A DNA stretch of 64,000 nt. Source: Fuerstiella sp. (GTDB lineage Bacteria; Planctomycetota; Planctomycetia; Planctomycetales; Planctomycetaceae). Shown piece after piece: positions 26,627 through 56,400 of this stretch. The DNA is taken from assembly GCA_022447225.1 (NCBI GenBank), contig JAKVAZ010000007.1:422475-486474 (forward strand). The letters are read 5' to 3'. Numbering within the stretch: position 1 is the first letter of the stretch; each line of letters starts with the position of its first letter. A program made the translations under genes and the position numbers. The notes beneath the pieces were generated by a model that worked only from the letters and a program-made list of their open reading frames with translations, had not been told where the DNA came from and ran no database searches.

Positions 26627-26822
26627 CTCTTCGTACCGGAAAAAAAGAGGGGCGTCCCTGACCGGAATTTCCTTTGAATCGGACATTGTCCTGAAGCCGG
26701 ACTCTTTTTGCGACCGGCTCTTTCCAACCGCAGCAGTTCTTCAGTCTGTGACTGTGTTGTCCGGCAACGTCGTTTCAGGCCTCATTTGGAAACCGAAACA
26801 CCGTAAAACACATCGGAAATGA
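26616..26822 (+). CDS. Possible small basic protein between WGR-HEAT gene and retron RNA
   Basis: 68 codons from an ATG at 26616 that overlaps the WGR-HEAT stop by 11 bases. A perfect GGAGG at 26605-26609 sits six bases before the ATG, an unusually strong ribosome site for this window and the main support. The peptide starts MEFSSSYRKKRGASLTG and ends in a basic stretch (KPKHRKTHRK), with a mildly hydrophobic middle. No family is recognised. It could be a third component of the cassette, a coupling peptide, or chance. Confidence 0.35.
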   Translation: MEFSSSYRKKRGASLTGISFESDIVLKPDSFCDRLFPTAAVLQSVTVLSGNVVSGLIWKPKHRKTHRK

Positions 26823-45233: not shown

Positions 45234-48062
45234 TTAGTACTTTGTTAATGTTTCATCCAGGTTAAGCAGCACGTTTCCAATAATCGCCCAGGCAGCCAGT
45301 TCGGCTGTTGTGACGCCGGACGGCGCGGCATTGACAGTGTTGCCGTCGGAAAAGATTCGCGCCGCCGCCGGGTCAAGCGCATAGATTTCGACGTTTTTAC
45401 GGTAAAGTTGGCTCAGTTGATCAATTTCCTCCGGCGAAGGCTGTCGAGCTACGCACAGCCGGAACCCGTAGGCTGCCTTTTGACGGACATCTCCATCGAT
45501 CTCTGTAGCCATGCGGCGTCCGAGTGCGGCGGCGCACTGAACGAATACCGGGTCATTGAGCGTGACCAAAGCCTGTAACGGTGTATTGGTTCGCGGTCGA
45601 CGTTCCACACAGATGTTGCGACGTGGGGCGTCAAAGGTAATCATCGAAGGATACGGGGCTGTACGTTTCCACCACGTGTACAGTGCGCGTCGATACTGCT
45701 GGCCCTTTGTGCTCAGCTCCCACTGTGTGCTGTAACTGTGAATCTGTTCGAAGACCCCTGGTGGCTGATAAGGAAACACACCGGGACCGCCTGCCTGCCG
45801 GGTCAACAGTCCGCTCACAGCGAGTGCGTTGTCGCGTATCATTTCGGCATCCAGTCGGAACACCGGACCGCGGGAAAACAGTCGATTGTCCGGATCACTC
45901 CGAAGCCGATCGGGAGTCACAGTTGACGACTGACGGTACGTTGCTGACATGACGATTAGTTTTTGCATGGCCTGCAGATCCCATCCACGGGACACAAACT
46001 CTGTGGCCAGATAATCGAGCAGCATTGGGTGGGACGGAGGAGAACCCTGAATTCCAAGATCTTCGCTCGTTTCCACGATGGCTTTGCCGAACAGCAGTGC
46101 CCAGATACGGTTCATCGTTACGCGTGCCACCAGTGGGTTTTCCGGTCGCATGAGCCACCGCGCCAGTCCCAGTCGATTGTATTGCTCATTCTGCGGCCAG
46201 GAGTGCCATGCGGCAGGAACACCAGCCCGGACCTGTTCACCAGGATCCAGAAAGCTTCCGCGATGTAAAATACGGGTTTCACGCGGTTCGTCGTTCTCGA
46301 CCATGATCAGTGTGGAGGAAGGGGCTGATTTTTCTTCCAGTGTCTGGACTTCCTCCCGAACCGACGCAAGCAGCGGAGTGACTGTTCGGAAGTAGTTCGT
46401 CAGCTGAGTACGCTGAAGTTCCGTACGCCGGTTGTTTGGTATGTTCAGGATTGCGAATGTTGGCAATGGCGCCAGTTTATCTTTGACCGGTTCCTCGGTA
46501 CTGTCGTCGGAATACGTCCACAATCGAAAACGGCCAACACCGTGGCCAGCTAACCGGGAATCATGGGACATCCGGATCCGCAGATGCGATCCTTTCGGGA
46601 TGTCTTCCGTTTGATCGCCAACAAAGGTTGCATGGGCCTCTTCCTGATCGGTGCACCACCGGGTGTTCTGATCGTCGTCAATCGCGCCGGTGATGTTGCT
46701 GCCATCTGCCTGGTAGCTGGCGATCGCAGACTGAAGGGGAACCCGCTGCCACATCTTCCGGCGGCCGGGGGCGGAGTAATCCAGCCGAATGCTGCTAAGG
46801 TCAAAATTGCCGCTGTCTTCGTCCCGTCCCGGACCACCGTATGGAAGTTTTTCATGCCTGAGGACCTCAATGCCGATGCCGGACAGATCAGAAGTCGGTA
46901 CAGGAAACGATATTTCATAGACATCGTGATCAGGATTTTTTCCACTCGCCAGAATTGAATGATCATCAAGCAATTCAAGATCAGCCCCACAGAGCGATTT
47001 GATTTCGGTCGGTACAATGATGTTCCACCTGTTGCCGGCTGCGATTTTAGCTTCCCAGCGGAGCTGTCGGGCGGCAAGTTCCGGATGGTCACCTGCGTAC
47101 TGCCTTCGTAATTCTGTGAGTCGGGTTCTGTACTTTGCGATGGCGGAACGTTCCAGTGGACTTGTCGCGCTGATGGTGCCTCGCTCTGCAGCTGAATCTG
47201 CAGAGTTGTTGAAGAATGCGTACAACCGGAAGTAATCACGCTGGCTAAACGGGTCGTACTTGTGGTCATGGCACTGGGCACAGCCCATCGTGGTTCCCAT
47301 CCACACGGTCATGGTCGTGTTCACGCGATCAATGACCGATTCAACACGAAACTGTTCGGGATCAGTTCCGGCTTCGTAACAGAACGGTGTGTTGCGATGG
47401 AAACCGGTCGCAATCTGCTCACTGTCGGTGGGATTCGGCAGCAGGTCACCGGCAAGTTGTTCGATCGTGAATCGATCAAACGAAAGACCTCGATGAAACG
47501 CGTCGATGACCCAGTCTCGATAGAGCCAGATGTTTCGCGTTCCATCACTTTCATAGCCATGTGTATCGGCGTAACGCGCCAGATCCAGCCACCACGCCGT
47601 CATTCTTTCGGCGTACTCCACTGACTGCAGCAGTCGGTCAACGACCGTTACGTAGGCATCGTCAGACTGATCGACAACAAAGGCTCTTACTTCTTCAGGT
47701 GTGGGCGGTAAACCGGTCAGGTCCAGGGTCACACGGCGAATCAGAGTTGTCCTGTCGGCAGCAGGTGACGGTGCCAGCCCTTCCTGTTCAAGTCGATGCA
47801 GAACAAAAGCGTCGATTTGATTCTGTGCCCACTTGTTGTCACGGACAGGGGGAAGTTCCGGCCGCTGAGGCACGCTATAGGACCAGTGATCATCTTCAGA
47901 TGATTCGGCGGCGTTACCAGGAGTTGCACTATTCATAACGGCGACTGACAGGACCAGTGTGCACAGGAAGTATCCGTGCCATGTGTCGCCGGTAAAACGG
48001 TTGCCGATAAGCTGTGCGTGGGTCGTGTTCCGGGTCAGCGTTTGTGTTTTCAGAGTAGTCAT
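45234..48062 (-). CDS. DUF1549-DUF1553 secreted protein without PSCyt1 (locus 2)
   Basis: About 942 residues. The N-terminal membrane/leader segment (YFLCTLVLSVAVMNSATPG) suggests export. Unlike the proteins of loci 1 and 3 there is no N-terminal CxxCH module; the chain goes straight to DUF1549 (NQIDAFVLHRLEQEG, LIRRVTLDLTGLPPTPEEV), whose [12 protein letters not shown] motif is kept, then a ~270-residue region with an F5/8-like beta block (NITGAIDDDQNTRWCTDQEE), then DUF1553 ([36 protein letters not shown]). The inserted region, with DDDQNTRW and FRLWTYSDD, resembles a discoidin-type carbohydrate-binding domain. Co-transcribed with the DUF1501 gene 2 bp downstream. Confidence 0.92.
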   Translation of the reverse strand: MTTLKTQTLTRNTTHAQLIGNRFTGDTWHGYFLCTLVLSVAVMNSATPGNAAESSEDDHWSYSVPQRPELPPVRDNKWAQNQIDAFVLHRLEQEGLAPSPAADRTTLIRRVTLDLTGLPPTPEEVRAFVVDQSDDAYVTVVDRLLQSVEYAERMTAWWLDLARYADTHGYESDGTRNIWLYRDWVIDAFHRGLSFDRFTIEQLAGDLLPNPTDSEQIATGFHRNTPFCYEAGTDPEQFRVESVIDRVNTTMTVWMGTTMGCAQCHDHKYDPFSQRDYFRLYAFFNNSADSAAERGTISATSPLERSAIAKYRTRLTELRRQYAGDHPELAARQLRWEAKIAAGNRWNIIVPTEIKSLCGADLELLDDHSILASGKNPDHDVYEISFPVPTSDLSGIGIEVLRHEKLPYGGPGRDEDSGNFDLSSIRLDYSAPGRRKMWQRVPLQSAIASYQADGSNITGAIDDDQNTRWCTDQEEAHATFVGDQTEDIPKGSHLRIRMSHDSRLAGHGVGRFRLWTYSDDSTEEPVKDKLAPLPTFAILNIPNNRRTELQRTQLTNYFRTVTPLLASVREEVQTLEEKSAPSSTLIMVENDEPRETRILHRGSFLDPGEQVRAGVPAAWHSWPQNEQYNRLGLARWLMRPENPLVARVTMNRIWALLFGKAIVETSEDLGIQGSPPSHPMLLDYLATEFVSRGWDLQAMQKLIVMSATYRQSSTVTPDRLRSDPDNRLFSRGPVFRLDAEMIRDNALAVSGLLTRQAGGPGVFPYQPPGVFEQIHSYSTQWELSTKGQQYRRALYTWWKRTAPYPSMITFDAPRRNICVERRPRTNTPLQALVTLNDPVFVQCAAALGRRMATEIDGDVRQKAAYGFRLCVARQPSPEEIDQLSQLYRKNVEIYALDPAAARIFSDGNTVNAAPSGVTTAELAAWAIIGNVLLNLDETLTKY

Positions 48063-48640
48063 TGAGGCGTCTCAGTAACAAATGTGTGAGATCCGTGTGG
48101 CTGTGAATAGTGCAGCAACTGCAGGACTCGGCCGTTCAACGATACCTGTTGTTTTCACTCTATCGGTTTTTTCCCTTCATTCAAATGCTAACAGGCCGCA
48201 GAAAAACAGGTTGTTTGCAGTCAGATACACATCCACAATCGGTCTTTGTCTGCGGCAGGTTCAGGCAGGCAGGACTGCCGGAAAACTGTTCGCAGTGAGG
48301 ATAGCAGTTGCTGGTAGTTGCCTGTCAGCCGGGGCAGTGTGGCACGATTAATTGACTTGCGAAGTTTTTGGTCATGACTTTGGTGCGTATTGATTAAGAG
48401 GGGACACTTCACACGTGGAAAAGTTTCGAGAGTAAAGGCACAAGCTGCACGTTTTGTATTGCTGCAGTCCGGCAGATCACGGGGCCTGATCCGAGATGAC
48501 CGGCAACAGGTTACAGTGTTGTATTCAGGTGAACGCCGCGGTTAATTCGGACGAGCCGAAATATCTGCTTTACCAGTGACGATGGTTTCACTCGCTGCCG
48601 GCGGGGATGCGGACACCGCGATTATCATCGCTCTCATGAC
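48063..48640. other. Intergenic, no gene supported
   Basis: 578 bases before the tag remnant. Short ORFs give noise-like peptides and no SD site. Likely contains the promoter of the minus-strand DUF1549 gene, not identified. Confidence 0.35.
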
Positions 48641-48645
48641 GAAGA

Positions 48646-48797
48646 ATGAAGGCGTTCGCTGATTTTGATTTTGCAAACATCGCTGAAGTCAGCGAAAATG
48701 ATGTTGAACGGCTCTTGAAGGATGACGGCATTGTCCGTCACCGAGGAAAATTTATCGCCACTTTCAACAATGCTCGGCCCGCGATCGAAATCGTCGA
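48646..48797 (+). pseudogene. tag: Remnant of DNA-3-methyladenine glycosylase I (tag)
   Basis: About 50 codons reading KAFADFDFANIAEVSENDVE and then RLLKDDGIVRHRGKFIATFN. This matches the Tag core (family text is like FAGFDPxKVA...DVERLLxDxGIVRNRxKIEAxIxNA). The upstream LMTKNEGVR in another frame corresponds to the part before it, implying a frameshift, and after NNARPAIEIVED the match stops in a repeat. Neither zinc-site residues nor the catalytic half are present. Decayed gene; cannot be functional. Confidence 0.7.
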
Positions 48798-48814
48798 AGA
48801 CTGTGCTCGTCCGG

Positions 48815-48856
48815 GCGGGAACCACTGCCGGCGGGAACCACTGCCGGCGGGAACCA
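48815..48856. repeat. 16-bp tandem repeat, 2.6 copies
   Basis: gcgggaaccactgccg occurs at 48815-48830 and 48831-48846, with a partial third copy to 48856. It sits exactly where the tag remnant loses homology, so it may mark the deletion junction or the slippage that destroyed the gene. Confidence 0.85.
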
Positions 48857-49052
48857 TAGTCGCCGGATCCCCTGCACTGTTGCCGTGCGTGCACAAAACC
48901 AGTGTCTGATCCTGGACCGTCACTGTGATCGAACAGAAGGGGAAATGCCTGAGGAACCGGTATTCATTCGGGATTCGAAATTCATCGAAGTCGCTCGTCG
49001 AGTCCGGATCCCGGTCCGGTGCTGAGAAAAATCGACCCACGAAACCATCGAA

Positions 49053-49394
49053 TCAGTTAACCGCATCCGGATAAAGGCGTCCTGAACGCCCGGGAGGAAG
49101 TGTTTCCGGTTCGCGTGGCAGACCTCGCAGCAATCTCTGCTCAGCGGCTCGACGTTCGATGGTACGTGGTCTGTCAAAGTCGCGCGGGCGTGCATCCAGT
49201 GCTGGTCCAATTGCAGGATCAAAGAATGGATCGTTGTGTTCGTACGAAGCTCGTTCCGCCAGTGGATGCGGTCGGAAGAATGTGGGCATTCGGGTGTTTT
49301 GTGGCGTAATACAGCCGCCGAATGCACAGCACAACAGGCCTGAAGTCAGACACTGCAGCAAAAATGAACGGGATTGACTGGATGTGAGATTCAC
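49053..49394 (-). CDS. Small lipoprotein of unknown function
   Basis: 113 residues from a GTG at 49394. The N-terminus (SFLLQCLTSGLLCCAFGGCI) is a lipoprotein signal with lipobox AFGGC, so it is probably lipidated and membrane-attached. The mature part is short, Pro/Arg-rich and without strong secondary structure (FFRPHPLAERASYEHNDPFF, then DARPRDFDRPRTIERRAAEQ). No family is recognised. No SD upstream. Minus strand, no co-directional neighbour closer than the DUF547 gene 349 bp upstream. Confidence 0.65.
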   Translation of the reverse strand: MNLTSSQSRSFLLQCLTSGLLCCAFGGCITPQNTRMPTFFRPHPLAERASYEHNDPFFDPAIGPALDARPRDFDRPRTIERRAAEQRLLRGLPREPETLPPGRSGRLYPDAVN

Positions 49395-49515
49395 GTGCCG
49401 CGTCGTTCACTTAAAACGGGATATACCTGCCTGGCCGCTCATGACACGCGTCAAGCGTCATTATGGCTGACCGATGAACGAGGTTTGTAGCGACGATCAG
49501 GGACTTACAGCAAGA

Positions 49516-49736
49516 CGAGATTGGCAGAATCTGCCGGTGTTGATCGGCTAATTCTGCCGAACTCGTCAGTTTCATACACGAATGCTTTCAATCATTCCGA
49601 CGTGGCCTGTGAATTCGCTTTGACACAGCCAGTGATAATTCCTATTGTCTCGGCCTTCCGTACAAAACAGCAAACGGACTTGCTGAGTTGCGGAGCCGAA
49701 GCGGTACTGCCATGGATGGCGTTGGCCGCTTTTTTT
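49516..49736 (+). ncRNA. Candidate structured + strand RNA ending in an intrinsic terminator
   Basis: No protein gene fits this segment on the plus strand. At 49516-49565 a two-level hairpin is visible: outer cgag/ctcg with a20/a61 mismatch, then ggcagaa/ttctgcc (49523-49529 with 49552-49558), then gccg/cggc (49533-49536 with 49545-49548) over an 8-base loop. Near 49602-49635 a ggcctgtg/cacagcc stem with one bulge follows, and the segment ends in a terminator hairpin with T7. Length of about 220 nt fits an sRNA. The 5' end and promoter are unknown, so the limits are approximate. Confidence 0.45.
49699..49736 (+). terminator. Rho-independent terminator (+ strand)
   Basis: aagcgg (49699-49704) pairs with ccgctt (49726-49731); inside, gcca/tggc (49709-49712 with 49717-49720) closes a tgga tetraloop. 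Seven T residues (49730-49736) follow. Its orientation ends + strand transcription, yet no + strand protein gene precedes it, which is why the region above is listed as a candidate RNA. Confidence 0.65.
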
Positions 49737-49742
49737 ATGCGC

Positions 49743-50588
49743 TCAATGCTGTTCGTTGAGGTGCCAGTCATAATCCAGATAGCTGACGCGAAGTCGACCG
49801 GATACGGCGACTTTTTGTGCGGCCTGTGTCGGCAGCCAGCGAGCGATTGTTTTGAGCTGATCTGACTGATTGCTGCCGAAGTCTGAAGCGAACCACTTCA
49901 AAATGGACGATAGCTGAATCTCTCCGTCGCTGTACCGGAAGTTCCGCGGATGAAGAAAAAATTTGCGGGCACTTGTGTCCAGTTGATTCTGGACAGAGTT
50001 GGGTTTGTAGGATTCGTTGAGCAGTCGTGGACACCCGACTGAAGCGCAGACAATCGCGAAATGAACGCGCGACTCGTTCATTTTTAGAAGAATTTCGTGT
50101 TCGATTCGATTCAGTGAGTACGGGTGACCATCGACGAAGAGTTGCAGGTGTTTCCAGATGTTGTATCCGGAGGCACTGGGCGTGTGATTGCGGATGCTGC
50201 TGGTTGGATATTCCCTAAGGATTCCGTGAATGGTGACCGCGTTGTAGGCGTTGATCCAAAAAGCCAGCACAGCATCCGCGGATGACGTCCTTGTTCTTTT
50301 GCCCGTCGACAAATGGGCCAGATACTGTTCCAAACTGCGTCGGTCGGCGATATTGGTGGCCCACCTGCCGTAATTTACCATTCCGTGTTCGTTCACGTAG
50401 GCTTTTAGCAGTCGATCCCATCCTGAATGATCGATTTGTTCGAGCGGCGTAGTTGCCCGGACGCGTGTTCCTACGTAGACCTCTTTCTGACCGATCAGAC
50501 TGAAGGCAGCCATTCCTGCAGTAGTCGCTAACACCAGAGCTATCAGGCGTTTCGTCAGCATTTTTCTGAGGAGTTTGTGTGGCATCAT
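49743..50588 (-). CDS. DUF547 protein
   Basis: About 281 residues from the ATG at 50588 (ATGs at 50585 and 50561 are alternatives; a longer frame to 50720 lacks support). A hydrophobic N-terminal segment (LIALVLATTAGMAAFSLIG) suggests membrane anchoring or export. DUF547 hallmarks: VLAFWINAYNAVTIHGILRE, then IEHEIL, HFAIVCASVGCPRL, and the final VSYLDYDWHLN. The family is of unknown biochemical function, with a transglutaminase-like Cys (in CASVGCP) and nearby His that suggest a thiol active site. Ends about six bases after the + strand terminator, so transcripts of the two strands converge. Confidence 0.88.
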   Translation of the reverse strand: MMPHKLLRKMLTKRLIALVLATTAGMAAFSLIGQKEVYVGTRVRATTPLEQIDHSGWDRLLKAYVNEHGMVNYGRWATNIADRRSLEQYLAHLSTGKRTRTSSADAVLAFWINAYNAVTIHGILREYPTSSIRNHTPSASGYNIWKHLQLFVDGHPYSLNRIEHEILLKMNESRVHFAIVCASVGCPRLLNESYKPNSVQNQLDTSARKFFLHPRNFRYSDGEIQLSSILKWFASDFGSNQSDQLKTIARWLPTQAAQKVAVSGRLRVSYLDYDWHLNEQH

Positions 50589-50843
50589 GCATGGTCGTTC
50601 GCTGTAGACGGTCACTGACCGCTGATTGTGGCGCCGCAGAAATCCTAACGAACAAGCATTCGAATTTCGGTAAGGTGTCGAATCGGAGCTGCCGCTCCGG
50701 TTAATCAAACACGGGTACACCAGCAGTGGCGGTACCCCATGGAATTAACGGGGCTGCTGGGTTGTATCGCGAGATCTGATTAGCCAAAGTCTGGTCCTGC
50801 CGTTATGAGTCTGTACTGATCGTTAAAATGTGAAATTCAGAGA

Positions 50844-51812
50844 GTGACAGAGCTGATGGACGTCCTGAACAGGGTTGTTGCCGGGGTTGCTATGCCGGAG
50901 TCCCGGCCGTGGGATGCGGCCAATCTTGATTCTGCAACCCGGGCCGCCGTTCGGCAGGCGTTTCATCTTGCGTCTTCCATGGGGATTCCTCTGCAGCTTG
51001 TTACAGCCGTTAACGAACCGGAACGTCCTTTTTTTGATTCCGGGGTTGATACAGATCAACAGGCCGTTGTGGATCAACAGGAGGCGAATCAGGTACTGAC
51101 AGATCTGAAGTCTGACTATGTGAAGCTCAATGTGCGAGTCTCAGGTAAAGTTGTATTCGGACAGCCCTGGTTGGAAATCATGCGAGCGGCTGAGAATTCA
51201 CGACGGACGCTGATCGTTTGCGGTACACAAAATTCAGGCGCTGTCCGTCGGCTTCTGTTTGGCACGACCGGAATGCGGTTGCTGCGGCATGCGTCCGGGC
51301 CGGTCTGGCTGGTGAAGCCGCGCGCGGACAACGATGCCGTTCTGGACGTACTGGCGGCGACGGATCTTTCGGAGGTCGGTAGAGATGTGATCGCCGCCGG
51401 TGTGACATTGGGTCGCGCATTGCCGGTACAACTGACAGTCATGCACGTCCTCGATGGACTTGAGGACCGTCAGGTGGTGCGCGGCGGTGCATCGGAAGAA
51501 GAAGTTTTGAATTGGCGTAAACAGGTCAGGGCTGACGCTGAAATCCAGTTGCAGGATCAGCTGGCGGAGACTGACTTCCGAACACTGTCGCAGGGTGTGC
51601 GAACACAGATGACAGAAGGCGTTGCCGATACCTGTATTTTGTCGGGGATCGAGGAATTTGATGTCGACCTGCTGGTCATGGCCAGCTCCGGACGAGGTGG
51701 CGTTCCGGGACTCCTTTTCGGCAACACGACGGAACGACTGCTGCCTGAACTTCCGTGTTCTCTGTTGGTGGTGAAGCCGGATGATTTCGAGTGTTCGGTT
51801 GTTCTCAGCTGA
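50844..51812 (+). CDS. Tandem universal stress protein (two Usp domains)
   Basis: 322 residues from a GTG at 50844 (ATG at 50856 is an alternative). Two UspA-like alpha/beta domains: residues about 1-155 and 165-322. The second has the ATP-loop glycine pattern ASSGRGGVPGLLFGNTTERLL (GxxGxxG...GxxTE) and ends LPCSLLVVKP. The first has GAVRRLLFGTTGMRLLRHAS with a less standard loop, so only the second domain is likely to bind ATP in the usual way. Stand-alone gene. Usp proteins are stress-response and metabolic regulators; target unknown. Confidence 0.9.
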   Translation: MTELMDVLNRVVAGVAMPESRPWDAANLDSATRAAVRQAFHLASSMGIPLQLVTAVNEPERPFFDSGVDTDQQAVVDQQEANQVLTDLKSDYVKLNVRVSGKVVFGQPWLEIMRAAENSRRTLIVCGTQNSGAVRRLLFGTTGMRLLRHASGPVWLVKPRADNDAVLDVLAATDLSEVGRDVIAAGVTLGRALPVQLTVMHVLDGLEDRQVVRGGASEEEVLNWRKQVRADAEIQLQDQLAETDFRTLSQGVRTQMTEGVADTCILSGIEEFDVDLLVMASSGRGGVPGLLFGNTTERLLPELPCSLLVVKPDDFECSVVLS

Positions 51813-52136
51813 GACGTGGCAGTCGAACTTCCCCAAAATCGGCCGGAATCGTGGAAACAGGACGTCTCTGGATTTTGCGGGTGCTGCCGGGCTTTAGACT
51901 GCCGGTGTCGTGTTGTTTGAATCAGCACCGACAGATTCAGCCTGCTCCGGAGAGTTTTCATTGGCTGTCTTCGGGTTGGTCCGCAGGACTTACTGTGAAT
52001 GACAATTTACTGTACTGAACTGATATCCGGTTTCATACGAAGAACTTGCATTGGGTCAGGCCTCTGCTGATTACAGGCTGCGTTCCAACATCAGATCGGA
52101 CGTCATTAGTGTTTGTATGATCGATGGTGAATAAAT
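51813..52136. other. Intergenic, no gene supported
   Basis: 324 bases between usp and the peptidase gene, both on plus. No ORF with a recognisable product. Probably contains a usp terminator and the peptidase promoter; neither stands out. Confidence 0.35.
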
Positions 52137-53318
52137 ATGTTTGACCTTTCGGCAATTCAACGAGCCCTGAAGCAGTTCGGGTTTGATGGCTGGTTGCTCT
52201 GTGACTTTCGCGGAAGCAATCTGCTGGCACGCCGAATTATGGATATTCCGGAGGAGATGACGGTTTCCAGGCGATACTGCTGTTTCATCCCTGTCAGCGG
52301 TGAACCACAAAAAATTGTGCACCGCATCGAAAGTGGCGTCCTGAATCATCTGCCTGGTGAAACGAGAGAGTATCTGACATGGCAGGAACTGGAGTCGGCT
52401 CTGGAAGCAGTCGTTTCCGGCAGTCGGCGAATTGCGATGGAATATTCCGCCCGGAACGCCAATCCTTACATTGGACGGGTGGACGCAGGCACGATTGAGG
52501 TCGTCAGGGGCTTCGGATGCAGTGTGGAGAGTTCCGGTGATTTGATTTCTCTGTTTGAAGCCACGCTGTCTGACGCTCAGTTTGACGCTCATCTGGCTGC
52601 ATCAGAGGTGACCTGTGATGCCTTTGAACGGGCATGGCAGTTCATTGCAGAAAGAATTGGAACCCGCGGCGAAGTTGAGGAACTGGCGGTTCAACAGATC
52701 ATTCTGCAACATTTCTCTGACTGCGAACTGATCACCAGCCATCCTCCGATTGTTGCGGTGAATGCAAACGGCGGCAATCCCCACTACGAAACAGGATCTG
52801 CTTCCGATACGGTCATTACTGCGCAGAGTTTTGTACTGATCGATATGTGGGGGCGCCACGACCACGATAATGGCATCTATAGCGATCTGACACGCTGCGG
52901 TTATACGGGGAACAACGTGCCGGATCACTACAGGGATGTTTTTAAAACGGTTGCTGCAGCGCGTGATGCGGGTGTCGATCTTGTGCGTTCCGAACTGGCC
53001 TCCGGACGACCGCTTCAGGGGTGGCAGGTAGATGACGCTGTGCGTGAGGTGATCGTTGCTGCAGGTTATGGAGAGGCCTTCTGTCATCGGGCCGGTCACA
53101 GTCTGGGGCGCGAAACCCACGGCAACGGAACTCACATCGACAATCTGGAAACACACGAAACCCGTCAGATCCTGCCGCGGACACTATTCACGATTGAACC
53201 TGGTATCTACCTGCCTGAGTTTGGCATTCGCAGCGAAGTAAACGTGTTCATCCACGCAGACAACACGGTGCAGGTCACGGGTGGTGAAATACAGCAGGAA
53301 CCGCATCGGATCGTGTGA
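52137..53318 (+). CDS. M24-family metallopeptidase (Xaa-Pro aminopeptidase-like)
   Basis: 393 residues with the two-domain creatinase/aminopeptidase P layout: N-terminal domain to about residue 150, C-terminal pita-bread domain. Metal ligands visible: Asp in FVLIDMWGRH, Asp in YSDLTRCGY, His in GHSLGRETHGNG, Glu in FTIEPGIYLPEFG and Glu in IRSEVNVFI. This set is intact, so a dinuclear-metal hydrolase (peptidase or prolidase) is likely. Cytoplasmic, no leader. ATG at 52137 with no obvious SD. A hairpin spans its stop codon. Confidence 0.93.
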   Translation: MFDLSAIQRALKQFGFDGWLLCDFRGSNLLARRIMDIPEEMTVSRRYCCFIPVSGEPQKIVHRIESGVLNHLPGETREYLTWQELESALEAVVSGSRRIAMEYSARNANPYIGRVDAGTIEVVRGFGCSVESSGDLISLFEATLSDAQFDAHLAASEVTCDAFERAWQFIAERIGTRGEVEELAVQQIILQHFSDCELITSHPPIVAVNANGGNPHYETGSASDTVITAQSFVLIDMWGRHDHDNGIYSDLTRCGYTGNNVPDHYRDVFKTVAAARDAGVDLVRSELASGRPLQGWQVDDAVREVIVAAGYGEAFCHRAGHSLGRETHGNGTHIDNLETHETRQILPRTLFTIEPGIYLPEFGIRSEVNVFIHADNTVQVTGGEIQQEPHRIV

Positions 53319-53337
53319 TCCGGTCCCCTGCGGTTCA
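53299..53337 (+). terminator. Stop-codon-spanning hairpin, possible terminator of the M24 gene
   Basis: gaaccgca (53299-53306) pairs with tgcggttc (53330-53337); inside, cggatc (53308-53313) pairs with gatccg (53318-53323). The stem brackets the TGA at 53316-53318. No T run follows, so it may be Rho-linked or an mRNA stabiliser rather than an intrinsic terminator. Confidence 0.4.
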
Positions 53338-53452
53338 GGTCATCGACAGGTCGCCAAGCATCCTGCCGAAAACCATAAACCATTTTACGAAGTCTGTATT
53401 TGGCTTCATAACGGGCATTATCCGTCCGTCCGTCGGCAAGTGTTCGGTGTCG

Positions 53453-56400
53453 TCATTCCGTTCGTTGAATTTCGATTCCCGACAGGACGGGGGTGCCTTG
53501 TTTTGAGTTGAATTCGATCTGTAATTCATCTGCAATCATCACGTCTTCAAACGTTTCTGCAGCGATTCGGTGTTCCGGCGGGCCTGCGGGATCGAGCACG
53601 ATTTGTTCATCACGTGTGATTCCCTGCAGTGCAACGTGGAACTCACGTCTGGTTTTCGGAAATGTCAGCGGTGTGGAAAACAGAAGTCGAACCCGGTACG
53701 GATACGGTGTCGGTTGATCCGCATCGTCCGGGCGCGTTTCATCTGCATCTATGACCAGTCGAGCCGACTGTTCGTCGTGTCCCTGTGATGCCAGTGCTGT
53801 CCGTTGCCCCGCTCCACTGATGAAAAACACAATAGAATTACCCGGATTCCAGTCTGCACGGTCAGTGACAGCCTGGATCAGCGGCGTGATGTCTGCAGTA
53901 CGCTGGGCATCACCTGTGTCGCCGTTTTTTTTCCATTCCTCCGGATGCCAGGTAACCTTCTGCACCGTTTTTGGTCGGGACGTCAGATCGTGTGCGTCAC
54001 TGCTGAAACGTTCTGCATGGCCGGTATCCTGAGCGGAAATGATCAGTGACGCCGGTTCGGCGGACGGTTCTTGGCAAATGAACTGAATGTAAGCACTGTG
54101 GATTTCGGCTCCACGTGCCAAATTGACCTGATTGAATCTCATTCCGACCAGTTGAGTTTCTCCGTCTTCAACGAGTTCCAGGTCTCTGCTGTCGGTGTGG
54201 ACGTCACCGTTATCCCTTTCTTCTGCGTCGTCATCTGTATGATCGATCGGCAGGCCGGTACGGAGACTGGTTTCCCTGGTAAGAGTGAATCGGATACGGA
54301 CCTTTCGGACGTTGTCTGCACCCGATGCGAGGATCCATGATTCCTCACCTGCGGCAACAGAAGACGAATGATGTCGAAAGAGTGTCGCGTCGTCATTCAG
54401 ATTGACGGAAAGAAGAGGCGACGGGCCGGCGACTGGTGGGTATTCCAGCCACAGTAATCCGTCTTCTGTCCGGCGGTCACCGGGCGCACCGATGTTGACT
54501 CCCACCCTGCTGAGCTGATCGGTTTCCGTATGACTGGCAGCTGTCGGACTGATGGTCCAGAACTCCAGTTCTGGCATGTGCACGAGTGCCAGAGATGTCT
54601 GGTTCTGATAGGCGCAACTGCACGTTCGGGTGTAGTCCGGAGCGTTGAGAACTCCGTTGGCTACGACAAGATTAGACGTGCATCCGGACTTGAATCCACC
54701 AAAATTTCCTGTGCCGCTCTCCCCCAGCAGGTCATAAAAACCGGCGGCACCGGATCGGAATGTCAGCAAATGCTCGCTTGCTACAATGTTGTTGCAACCG
54801 TAGGCCCTGGTTACTTTCCACGCCTGAAGCTCACCGGTCAGCGGATTCGGGACCATCTTTTGGTGACCGTCTGTGATGTGAAACGCTCCGGCCGATTCGG
54901 TGTACGAATTCGCATTTGTGATGATCCAGTCGTTGTGCAGCATACAAGGTCCGGCATATTTGATCGTGTCCTTTTTCCATTTCAGTGTTCCGTCATCAGC
55001 GTGAAAAACGGCCATCCCCTGCCCGATTTCGGCATAAAGCCGGTCACTTGCCGCAGCACCCGCCTCCAGTAACAGATTATGTTCTTCAGAATATCCCAGC
55101 CATGTACCGAACACCCTGTCGGTCATCTCCCATACCGTTTCGCCGCTCTCGGCATCAAACGCCGCGATACGGTAGCTGTCTGCCCGCGAGGAACCGCGTC
55201 GACGCAAAGCTGCTTCGATGAGTTCCGGAGTTCGGTCGAGACAATAGATTCGCCCGCCGCCGGCAACGATTCCATTGTGCCAGAAGCTGTGTTTTGCGCT
55301 GACCTGCCACAAAACTTTTCCGGAGTGTCGATCAAATGCAACCAGTCCCAGACTGGCCGCGCGATCCAGACTCTTGGACCCAAATCCTGCGCGACTTCTT
55401 CGAAGACCGCGGTCAGATTCCGGATTCAGTTTGTTGCGTTCCCGATAATTGGCGTAGCCGTATCCGCCCAGCAGCACATCTTCATACACTCCAATGTAAC
55501 CCCACTGTGGTTTGCTGCCTGACTGGTCCTGAGGAAGCTGAATTTCCTGAATCGTTGTCCCGACTGCGGGATCGAGTATATGGCAGCGACTGCCTTCCAC
55601 CACATAGATACGGTCTTCTGTCACGATGTAGTTTGTACCCCGACCGTTGGCTCCGGGAATGTGCACCTGGTTGTATTTTGGATCGAGCGGAGTATTCGTG
55701 TATGTTTCATCGTAATAGACGTCGAAGGTACCCAGGTCTTCGAATTTCCTTTTCCACAGGACTCTGCCCGTATACACATCACGAGCACTCAGACTGTTAA
55801 TGCCTTCAATAAACAGTCGGCCTCCGGCAACCTGTTCGGGAGGGCCGTGTCCATGTCTGGGTAACACCTCCATGTTGCTGCTTCCTCCGAACCACAGGAT
55901 CCCCAGCGGCAGTTTCACACGTCGGTCATTCGACTTAACCGTGTTGGCAATATCGCCGTACTGATGCGTCCAGTCGGCAGAGCCAGGAAGCTTTCCGGTA
56001 CGTCGAATCATTACGCTGTGATCTGTGATCGTTACTTCCGCCTGTTCAAGACCCAGACCCTGCACGCGTTCCGCCAGTCGATCTTTGTTGTTGTCTGCGA
56101 TCAGGTGCATCACGCCACCGTACGGACGCACACCTCTGTACAATTCCGCAATCAGACCGTCGTCAGCAGAAGAGGTCAGCTCGTGTCCGGCGAATACCAC
56201 GTTCGCCGTATACTTAGGAGCCCGAAATAACGCAGCAGGTGAACAGTGTGCCGTTGTGCTTCCATACAGGCCTGCGCCATCAAGTAAATGTCGCAGATGA
56301 TCAATTTTTTCCGCGTCAGGATCAATAATTGCCAGTTGTGTGAACGGTGAGTGTGCTGCAAGAGCGTGAATCAGAGATTCGTCGGAGATTCCGTACCAGT

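Follow-up and report, generated by a model that had tools for sequence, protein, structure and literature searches.

What does an intrinsic terminator terminate when no gene runs into it? The question is raised by a locus of the planctomycete Fuerstiella sp. (contig JAKVAZ010000007.1), of which we analyzed a stretch of 64,000 nucleotides (nt), here called the window. A first-pass annotation had marked 221 nt of it (49516-49736) as an orphan structured RNA made up of a two-level hairpin, a third stem and a plus-strand terminator, and had placed it between a minus-strand lipoprotein open reading frame (ORF, 49053-49394) and the 3′ end of a minus-strand DUF547 gene at 49743. This setting was confirmed. 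The third stem is present, the terminator shows its stem, inner stem and seven T at 49699-49736, and neither the ORF list nor homologies revealed a plus-strand gene ending there. The annotation had further suggested an independent small RNA (sRNA), and this idea held up well: a promoter, a covarying structure and the 3′ hairpin are kept in 13 genomes while the downstream neighbor changes. We regard the existence of a stand-alone sRNA gene as practically certain. The main clue to its function, absent from the annotation, is a pair of ANGGAN hexaloops, which suggests that the RNA serves as a decoy for CsrA.

A conserved promoter and a terminator delimit the predicted sRNA

In fold predictions, the 221-nt stretch scored better than every one of 200 dinucleotide-shuffled versions (z-score, z, –4.66). 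Its opposite strand reached z = –3.35, with one of 200 shuffles as good, as expected of inverted repeats. A promoter scan of positions 46000-54000 returned a sole promoter-like site, a sigma-70-type TTGACA-17-TATTGT on the plus strand at 49620-49648. A single match is no proof by itself, given that shuffles yield 4.5, and the weight of the assignment rests on conservation. Indeed, TTTGACA and TAxxxT were invariant in alignments of nine and of eleven sequences, and TTTGACA was also found in members G073 and G075. In one congener (G001) nearly the entire 221-nt stretch aligned with 76% identity, while in the other (G002) DNA similarity was confined to query positions 130-260, i.e., from just before the promoter to just past the terminator. 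Together with the internal promoter, this limited similarity indicates that the stretch is not one RNA. The 5′ border at 49516 was thus given up in favor of a start near 49655, from where transcription would proceed to the terminator. The predicted sRNA, with its 5′ end taken from the promoter and its 3′ end from the terminator, comprises about 82 nt (49655-49736, plus strand). A 114-amino-acid ORF spanning 49521-49865 was rejected as a coding gene, since it lacked a Pfam match and congener indels were not multiples of three.

Two plus-strand stem-loops make up the predicted fold. Stem-loop 1 (49651-49698), assigned from the fold and from compensatory changes, consists of a lower stem (49651-49654/49695-49698), an outer stem (49657-49662/49689-49694) and an inner stem (49668-49673/49680-49685) topped by the hexaloop ACGGAC (49674-49679), which is unpaired in the prediction and represents putative CsrA site 1. 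Stem-loop 2 (49699-49736) is the intrinsic terminator, with a stem at 49699-49705/49725-49731, an inner stem at 49708-49711/49718-49721 and a run of seven T at 49730-49736. Its hexaloop AUGGAU (49712-49717), closed by a C-G pair (CANGGANG) and likewise unpaired in the fold, represents putative CsrA site 2, so that in this model the terminator hairpin contains the second site. The two putative sites are 38 nt apart. A simple terminator scan with a loop limit of 3-8 omitted stem-loop 2. The same scan reported stem-loop 1 on the minus strand as terminator-like (49685-49668, TTTT after the stem). Read in that direction, it could terminate DUF547 transcription in this genome; the minus-strand T run is absent in G002.

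Structure and distribution across genomes

The sRNA gene was detected in 13 genomes of three genera, namely in 3/3, 8/8 and 2/4 of the genomes searched in g1, g55 and g54, respectively; one of the two g54 genomes without it is only 66% complete. Both stem-loops were predicted in all three congeners (g1; z –3.2, –5.6 and –2.6); among these, both partners had changed in five of 23 pairs, and 98.5% of cells paired. When the alignment was extended to nine sequences (g1 and g55), 85% of cells were paired compared to 73% in shuffles (0/500 as high), 11 of 24 pairs had changed on both sides (reached by 3/500 shuffles), 31 further pair types occurred (11/500), and the covariation score was 0.470 versus 0.240 in shuffles, none of 500 being as high. 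In a slide control, shifting the partners by one to three columns lowered pairing to 37.5-55.9%. We give most weight to this control and to the count of double changes because related sequences can beat shuffles without structure. RNAalifold, run independently, produced largely the same consensus. Spacing was regular as well: the distance from the –35 box to loop 1 was 47-49 nt in ten of the eleven g1/g55 members, whose loops start 37-40 nt apart. The corresponding values were 40 and 33 nt in G075, and 62 and 26 nt in both g54 members.

The members came from several searches. The window sequence and two others rest on DNA similarity, two (G073 and G075, both missed by motif scans) were added by covariance models, and eight were obtained by motif or pattern scans, among them G065 by pattern search. 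A covariance-model search in other planctomycetes, as the annotation had proposed, returned homologs. A model of three sequences (R1) clearly matched the three congeners alone among 170 genomes of the family; we discarded the nine other matches, which included an additional site in the genome of the window (E 0.06), because they were weak and failed to display both loops. Model R2 identified ten of the 170 family genomes at E ≤ 0.01; its second match in the window (26640-26701, minus strand, E 0.07) was too weak to be accepted. With the promoter included (R3), 11 of 397 genomes of the class matched, all of them from g1, g55 and g54. A pattern search produced 30 matches in 29 of the 170 genomes, compared to five for the reversed-pattern control; 11 were members and 19 were not accepted. 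In addition, we scanned 30 loci upstream of the lipoprotein gene, 26 of which were properly placed (L156, L162, L168 and L170 lacked the lipoprotein ORF at the expected position). Paired hairpins were seen there in genus g55 and in one g54 genome. No such RNA was found in this upstream region in L147, L153, L155, L157, L158, L160, L164-L166 and L171-L173. Two doubtful cases, L159 and L149, the latter without a T run, were left out of the count. Locus L135 (genome G165), one of the weak R1 matches, showed a CCATGGATGG hairpin loop with the same GCCATGGATGGC core and no first hairpin.

The paired loops and the CsrA complement of the host

The high-affinity site of CsrA/RsmE has been defined as an ANGGAX hexaloop that caps a stem directly and whose N and X are looped out (Duss et al. 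2014, PMC4005645). The sRNA loops fit this published pattern, with A and GGA fixed and N and X free. Loop 2 read ANGGAN in 13/13 members, N being T in four, G in seven and C in two. Loop 1 contained ANGGA in 12 of them, with C, T or G at position N; in G073 it reads AGGA. For instance, the three congeners carried ACGGAC, ACGGAT and ACGGAT in loop 1 and ATGGAT throughout in loop 2. The models, built from motif-bearing sequences, favor the motif and do not require it. Predicted folds left both GGAs unpaired with a probability of at least 0.79 in nine members. Within the 64-kb window, two ANGGAN hexaloop hairpins at a distance of 20-60 nt occurred nowhere except in the sRNA itself; one such pair was counted in 838,156 background strand-bases, and only two of 20,000 shuffled versions of the sRNA carried two such hairpins. 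Single A.GGA hexaloops are ordinary, so it is the conserved pair that carries the argument.

A candidate binding partner is encoded in the same genome. Six matches to csrA exceeded the Pfam cut-off (L214-L219), and one copy scanned passed the NCBIfam CsrA equivalog cut-off. All five copies that were translated start with MLVLSR and continue later with VHR (three) or IVR (two); L4 and R44 within these segments are RNA-contacting residues. Every one of 59 relatives searched contained csrA, with 2-16 copies each. In Pfam profile searches, FliW, the protein antagonist of CsrA, was not found in any of 37 genomes of this family, whereas 14 of 22 genomes that represent other families of the class had a match; Hfq was not found in 59 genomes, including this one. 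As a separate observation, the leader before a response-regulator-like ORF (L206-L209; G168, G170, G172 and G035) contains the hairpin CCAGCC-ANGGAT-TGGCTGG. The leader is nearly identical in four species, yet position N of ANGGA differs, being A, T, A and C; it looks like the leader of a CsrA-controlled messenger RNA (mRNA).

A candidate CsrA decoy and its alternatives

Taken together, the promoter at its conserved spacing, the covarying stems, the A(N)GGA loops with a free N, the six csrA genes and the failure to find FliW or Hfq point to a CsrA decoy. We consider it very probable that the sRNA binds CsrA, and probable that titration of CsrA is its main role, which would make it a two-site decoy comparable to McaS or to a minimal CsrB/RsmZ. 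According to this proposal, a non-coding RNA some 82 nt long would be made from its own promoter and ended by its own terminator, and each stem-loop would present one ANGGAN hexaloop to CsrA. One CsrA dimer could bridge both sites and would thereby be kept off mRNA leaders, such that a rise in the sRNA level, presumably in response to a controlling signal, would release CsrA-repressed mRNAs. Transcription, CsrA binding, titration as the outcome and the controlling signal are what we infer from these features.

Several points weigh against this proposal. The sRNA has two strong sites, while classic sponges have many, and no UvrY/GacA-type operator was found upstream. Eight of the 13 members were found via the motif, which means that loop conservation is partly selected, and single A.GGA hexaloops were not enriched over permuted motifs in these genomes. 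GGA exposure was less clear in four members: the predicted unpaired probability was 0.35-0.50 for loop 2 of G069, 0.5 for loop 1 of G065 and 0.65-0.83 for both loops of G075, and in G073 both loops were less exposed, loop 2 least, its two Gs being mostly paired (0.15-0.17 unpaired). G070-G072 and G074 have a T tract that is either short or broken up by C. Finally, the sRNA was found in three genera only, whereas csrA is family-wide; the model searches scored 9-26 candidates per genome, few enough that they do not establish absence elsewhere.

Could the hairpins be explained without a decoy? If they were nothing but terminators, stem-loop 2 would act on the plus strand and stem-loop 1, followed by TTTT, on the minus strand for DUF547. 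The minus-strand listing of stem-loop 1 in the terminator scan would agree with this view. However, loci with a decayed DUF547 gene, or without one next to the RNA, retain the structure, and in G002 the T run on the minus strand is missing. The covarying stems, the TTTGACA at fixed spacing and the fixed loop letters across three genera also speak against it, and we deem this explanation very improbable. Still harder to credit is a cis-antisense RNA directed at the 3′ end of either neighbor, DUF547 or the lipoprotein gene, a role the annotation had considered. In this genome the sRNA is antisense to the sequence that immediately follows DUF547, but the predicted RNA ends 6 nt before that ORF, and the shifting neighborhood contradicts such a role, with an intact DUF547 neighbor here alone among the loci read. 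The lipoprotein gene diverges from the sRNA, its predicted start lies about 180 bp away, and three of 13 members are not beside it at all.

The remaining two explanations involve base-pairing. Many stand-alone sRNAs pair with mRNAs, and few parts of this one are as well conserved as its loops, as would suit an sRNA that pairs through its loops without any part for CsrA. What varies within the loops, though, is N and X, while A and GGA stay, which is the published CsrA consensus, and Hfq was not found; we therefore judge this rather improbable. Alternatively, CsrA might act as a chaperone or stabilizer in place of the missing Hfq, with the sRNA acting on mRNAs by base-pairing. Such roles have precedents, given that CsrA promotes pairing of SR1 with its target in Bacillus subtilis (PMC9029176) and enhances the repression of csgD by McaS in Escherichia coli (PMC10729762), and the lack of Hfq matches in 59/59 genomes would leave room for a substitute. 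However, the two main genera share hardly any invariant unpaired position beyond the loops and the promoter, and variation at N and X would hardly be tolerable for an antisense seed. We thus consider a chaperone role unlikely and favor titration of CsrA by the sRNA.

Neighboring genes and the upstream inverted repeat

The small lipoprotein gene (49053-49394, minus strand) adjoins the sRNA gene divergently in ten of the 13 members, the exceptions being G065, G073 and G075. A profile search for its product matched 158 of the 170 genomes of the family, and Pfam and NCBIfam gave no match. A putative promoter, TTGCTG-18-TACAAA, lies on the minus strand at 49484-49513 (–35 box 49508-49513), and a promoter of this type was seen in eight of the ten members adjoining the lipoprotein gene. 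On the other side, the DUF547 gene (minus strand; longest ORF 49743-50720, of which the Pfam scan took 49743-50567) faces the sRNA with its downstream region. Among the loci read it is intact solely in this genome; it is decayed in G001, and other genes follow in G002.

The two-level hairpin of the annotation does exist, as an inverted repeat at 49516-49565 to which no strand is assigned, but it is not part of the RNA: it lies upstream of both the sRNA and the lipoprotein promoters, between their –35 boxes, and outside the predicted sRNA. It contains GGCAGAATCTGCC (49523-49535) and a degenerate copy, GGCTAATTCTGCC (49546-49558). These correspond to 13-bp palindromes, GGCAGANTCTGCC, 23 bp apart between the divergent promoters; one is degenerate here, and both are perfect in G001. 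A regulator-binding site, i.e., a possible operator, is a reasonable guess for this two-palindrome repeat.

Comparison with known CsrA-titrating systems

UvrY/GacA-type operators are inverted repeats of the form TGTAAG-N6-CTTACA. No match within three mismatches occurred near the sRNA gene, and the best site within 300 bp upstream of any member agreed in nine of the 12 fixed letters. Searches of the window and the 13 member loci returned no Rfam Csr/Rsm match, either at the gathering threshold or at a permissive setting, the few sub-threshold matches being unrelated. As neither an Rfam match nor such an operator was found, we do not file the sRNA as a member of the Csr/Rsm family. It nevertheless resembles CsrB, CsrC, RsmX, RsmY and RsmZ in being a stand-alone non-coding RNA with stem-loops that expose ANGGA, in having, judged by sequence, its own promoter and intrinsic terminator and no coding sequence, in sharing the genome with csrA, and in the CsrA sequestration predicted for it. 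It differs by its two strong sites, compared to 22 CsrA sites in CsrB (PMC10729762), and by its planctomycete host, the Csr/Rsm sRNAs having been described from Gammaproteobacteria (PMC7652899). In reviews, titrating sRNAs are described in Gammaproteobacteria and FliW elsewhere (PMC7652899, PMC7366521), and Planctomycetes are among the groups suggested to use FliW (Zere et al. 2015, PMC4682653). Our literature search, with preprints and most subscription journals outside its scope, revealed no CsrA-binding sRNA in planctomycetes among the matches listed.

McaS of E. coli is likewise a short sRNA that titrates CsrA; two of its four GGA motifs were shown to bind (PMC10729762). Unlike the planctomycete sRNA, which shows no conserved pairing seed and for which no Hfq was found in 59 genomes, McaS also base-pairs with mRNAs. 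Outside Gammaproteobacteria, the flaA mRNA leader of Campylobacter jejuni titrates CsrA with two GGA hexaloops beside FliW (PMC4894983), and hence two sites can suffice. That leader is itself a CsrA target and part of an mRNA, whereas the present sRNA is a separate non-coding gene. In the literature covered, then, titration of CsrA by RNA in other groups than Gammaproteobacteria is represented by an mRNA leader, and we found no case of a stand-alone sRNA. FliW would occupy the same place in the proposed circuit, the relief of CsrA, but it is a protein and was not found in the 37 genomes of this family. Whether a Planctomycetia family in which FliW was not found and csrA is kept and multiplied uses a two-site decoy of about 82 nt that is independent in origin of the gammaproteobacterial CsrB/RsmZ is, in our estimate, evenly balanced. 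If true, dedicated RNA decoys for CsrA arose more than once, two sites are enough for selection to keep one, and the sRNA opens a way to study why these bacteria carry several csrA copies, 2-16 in each genome.
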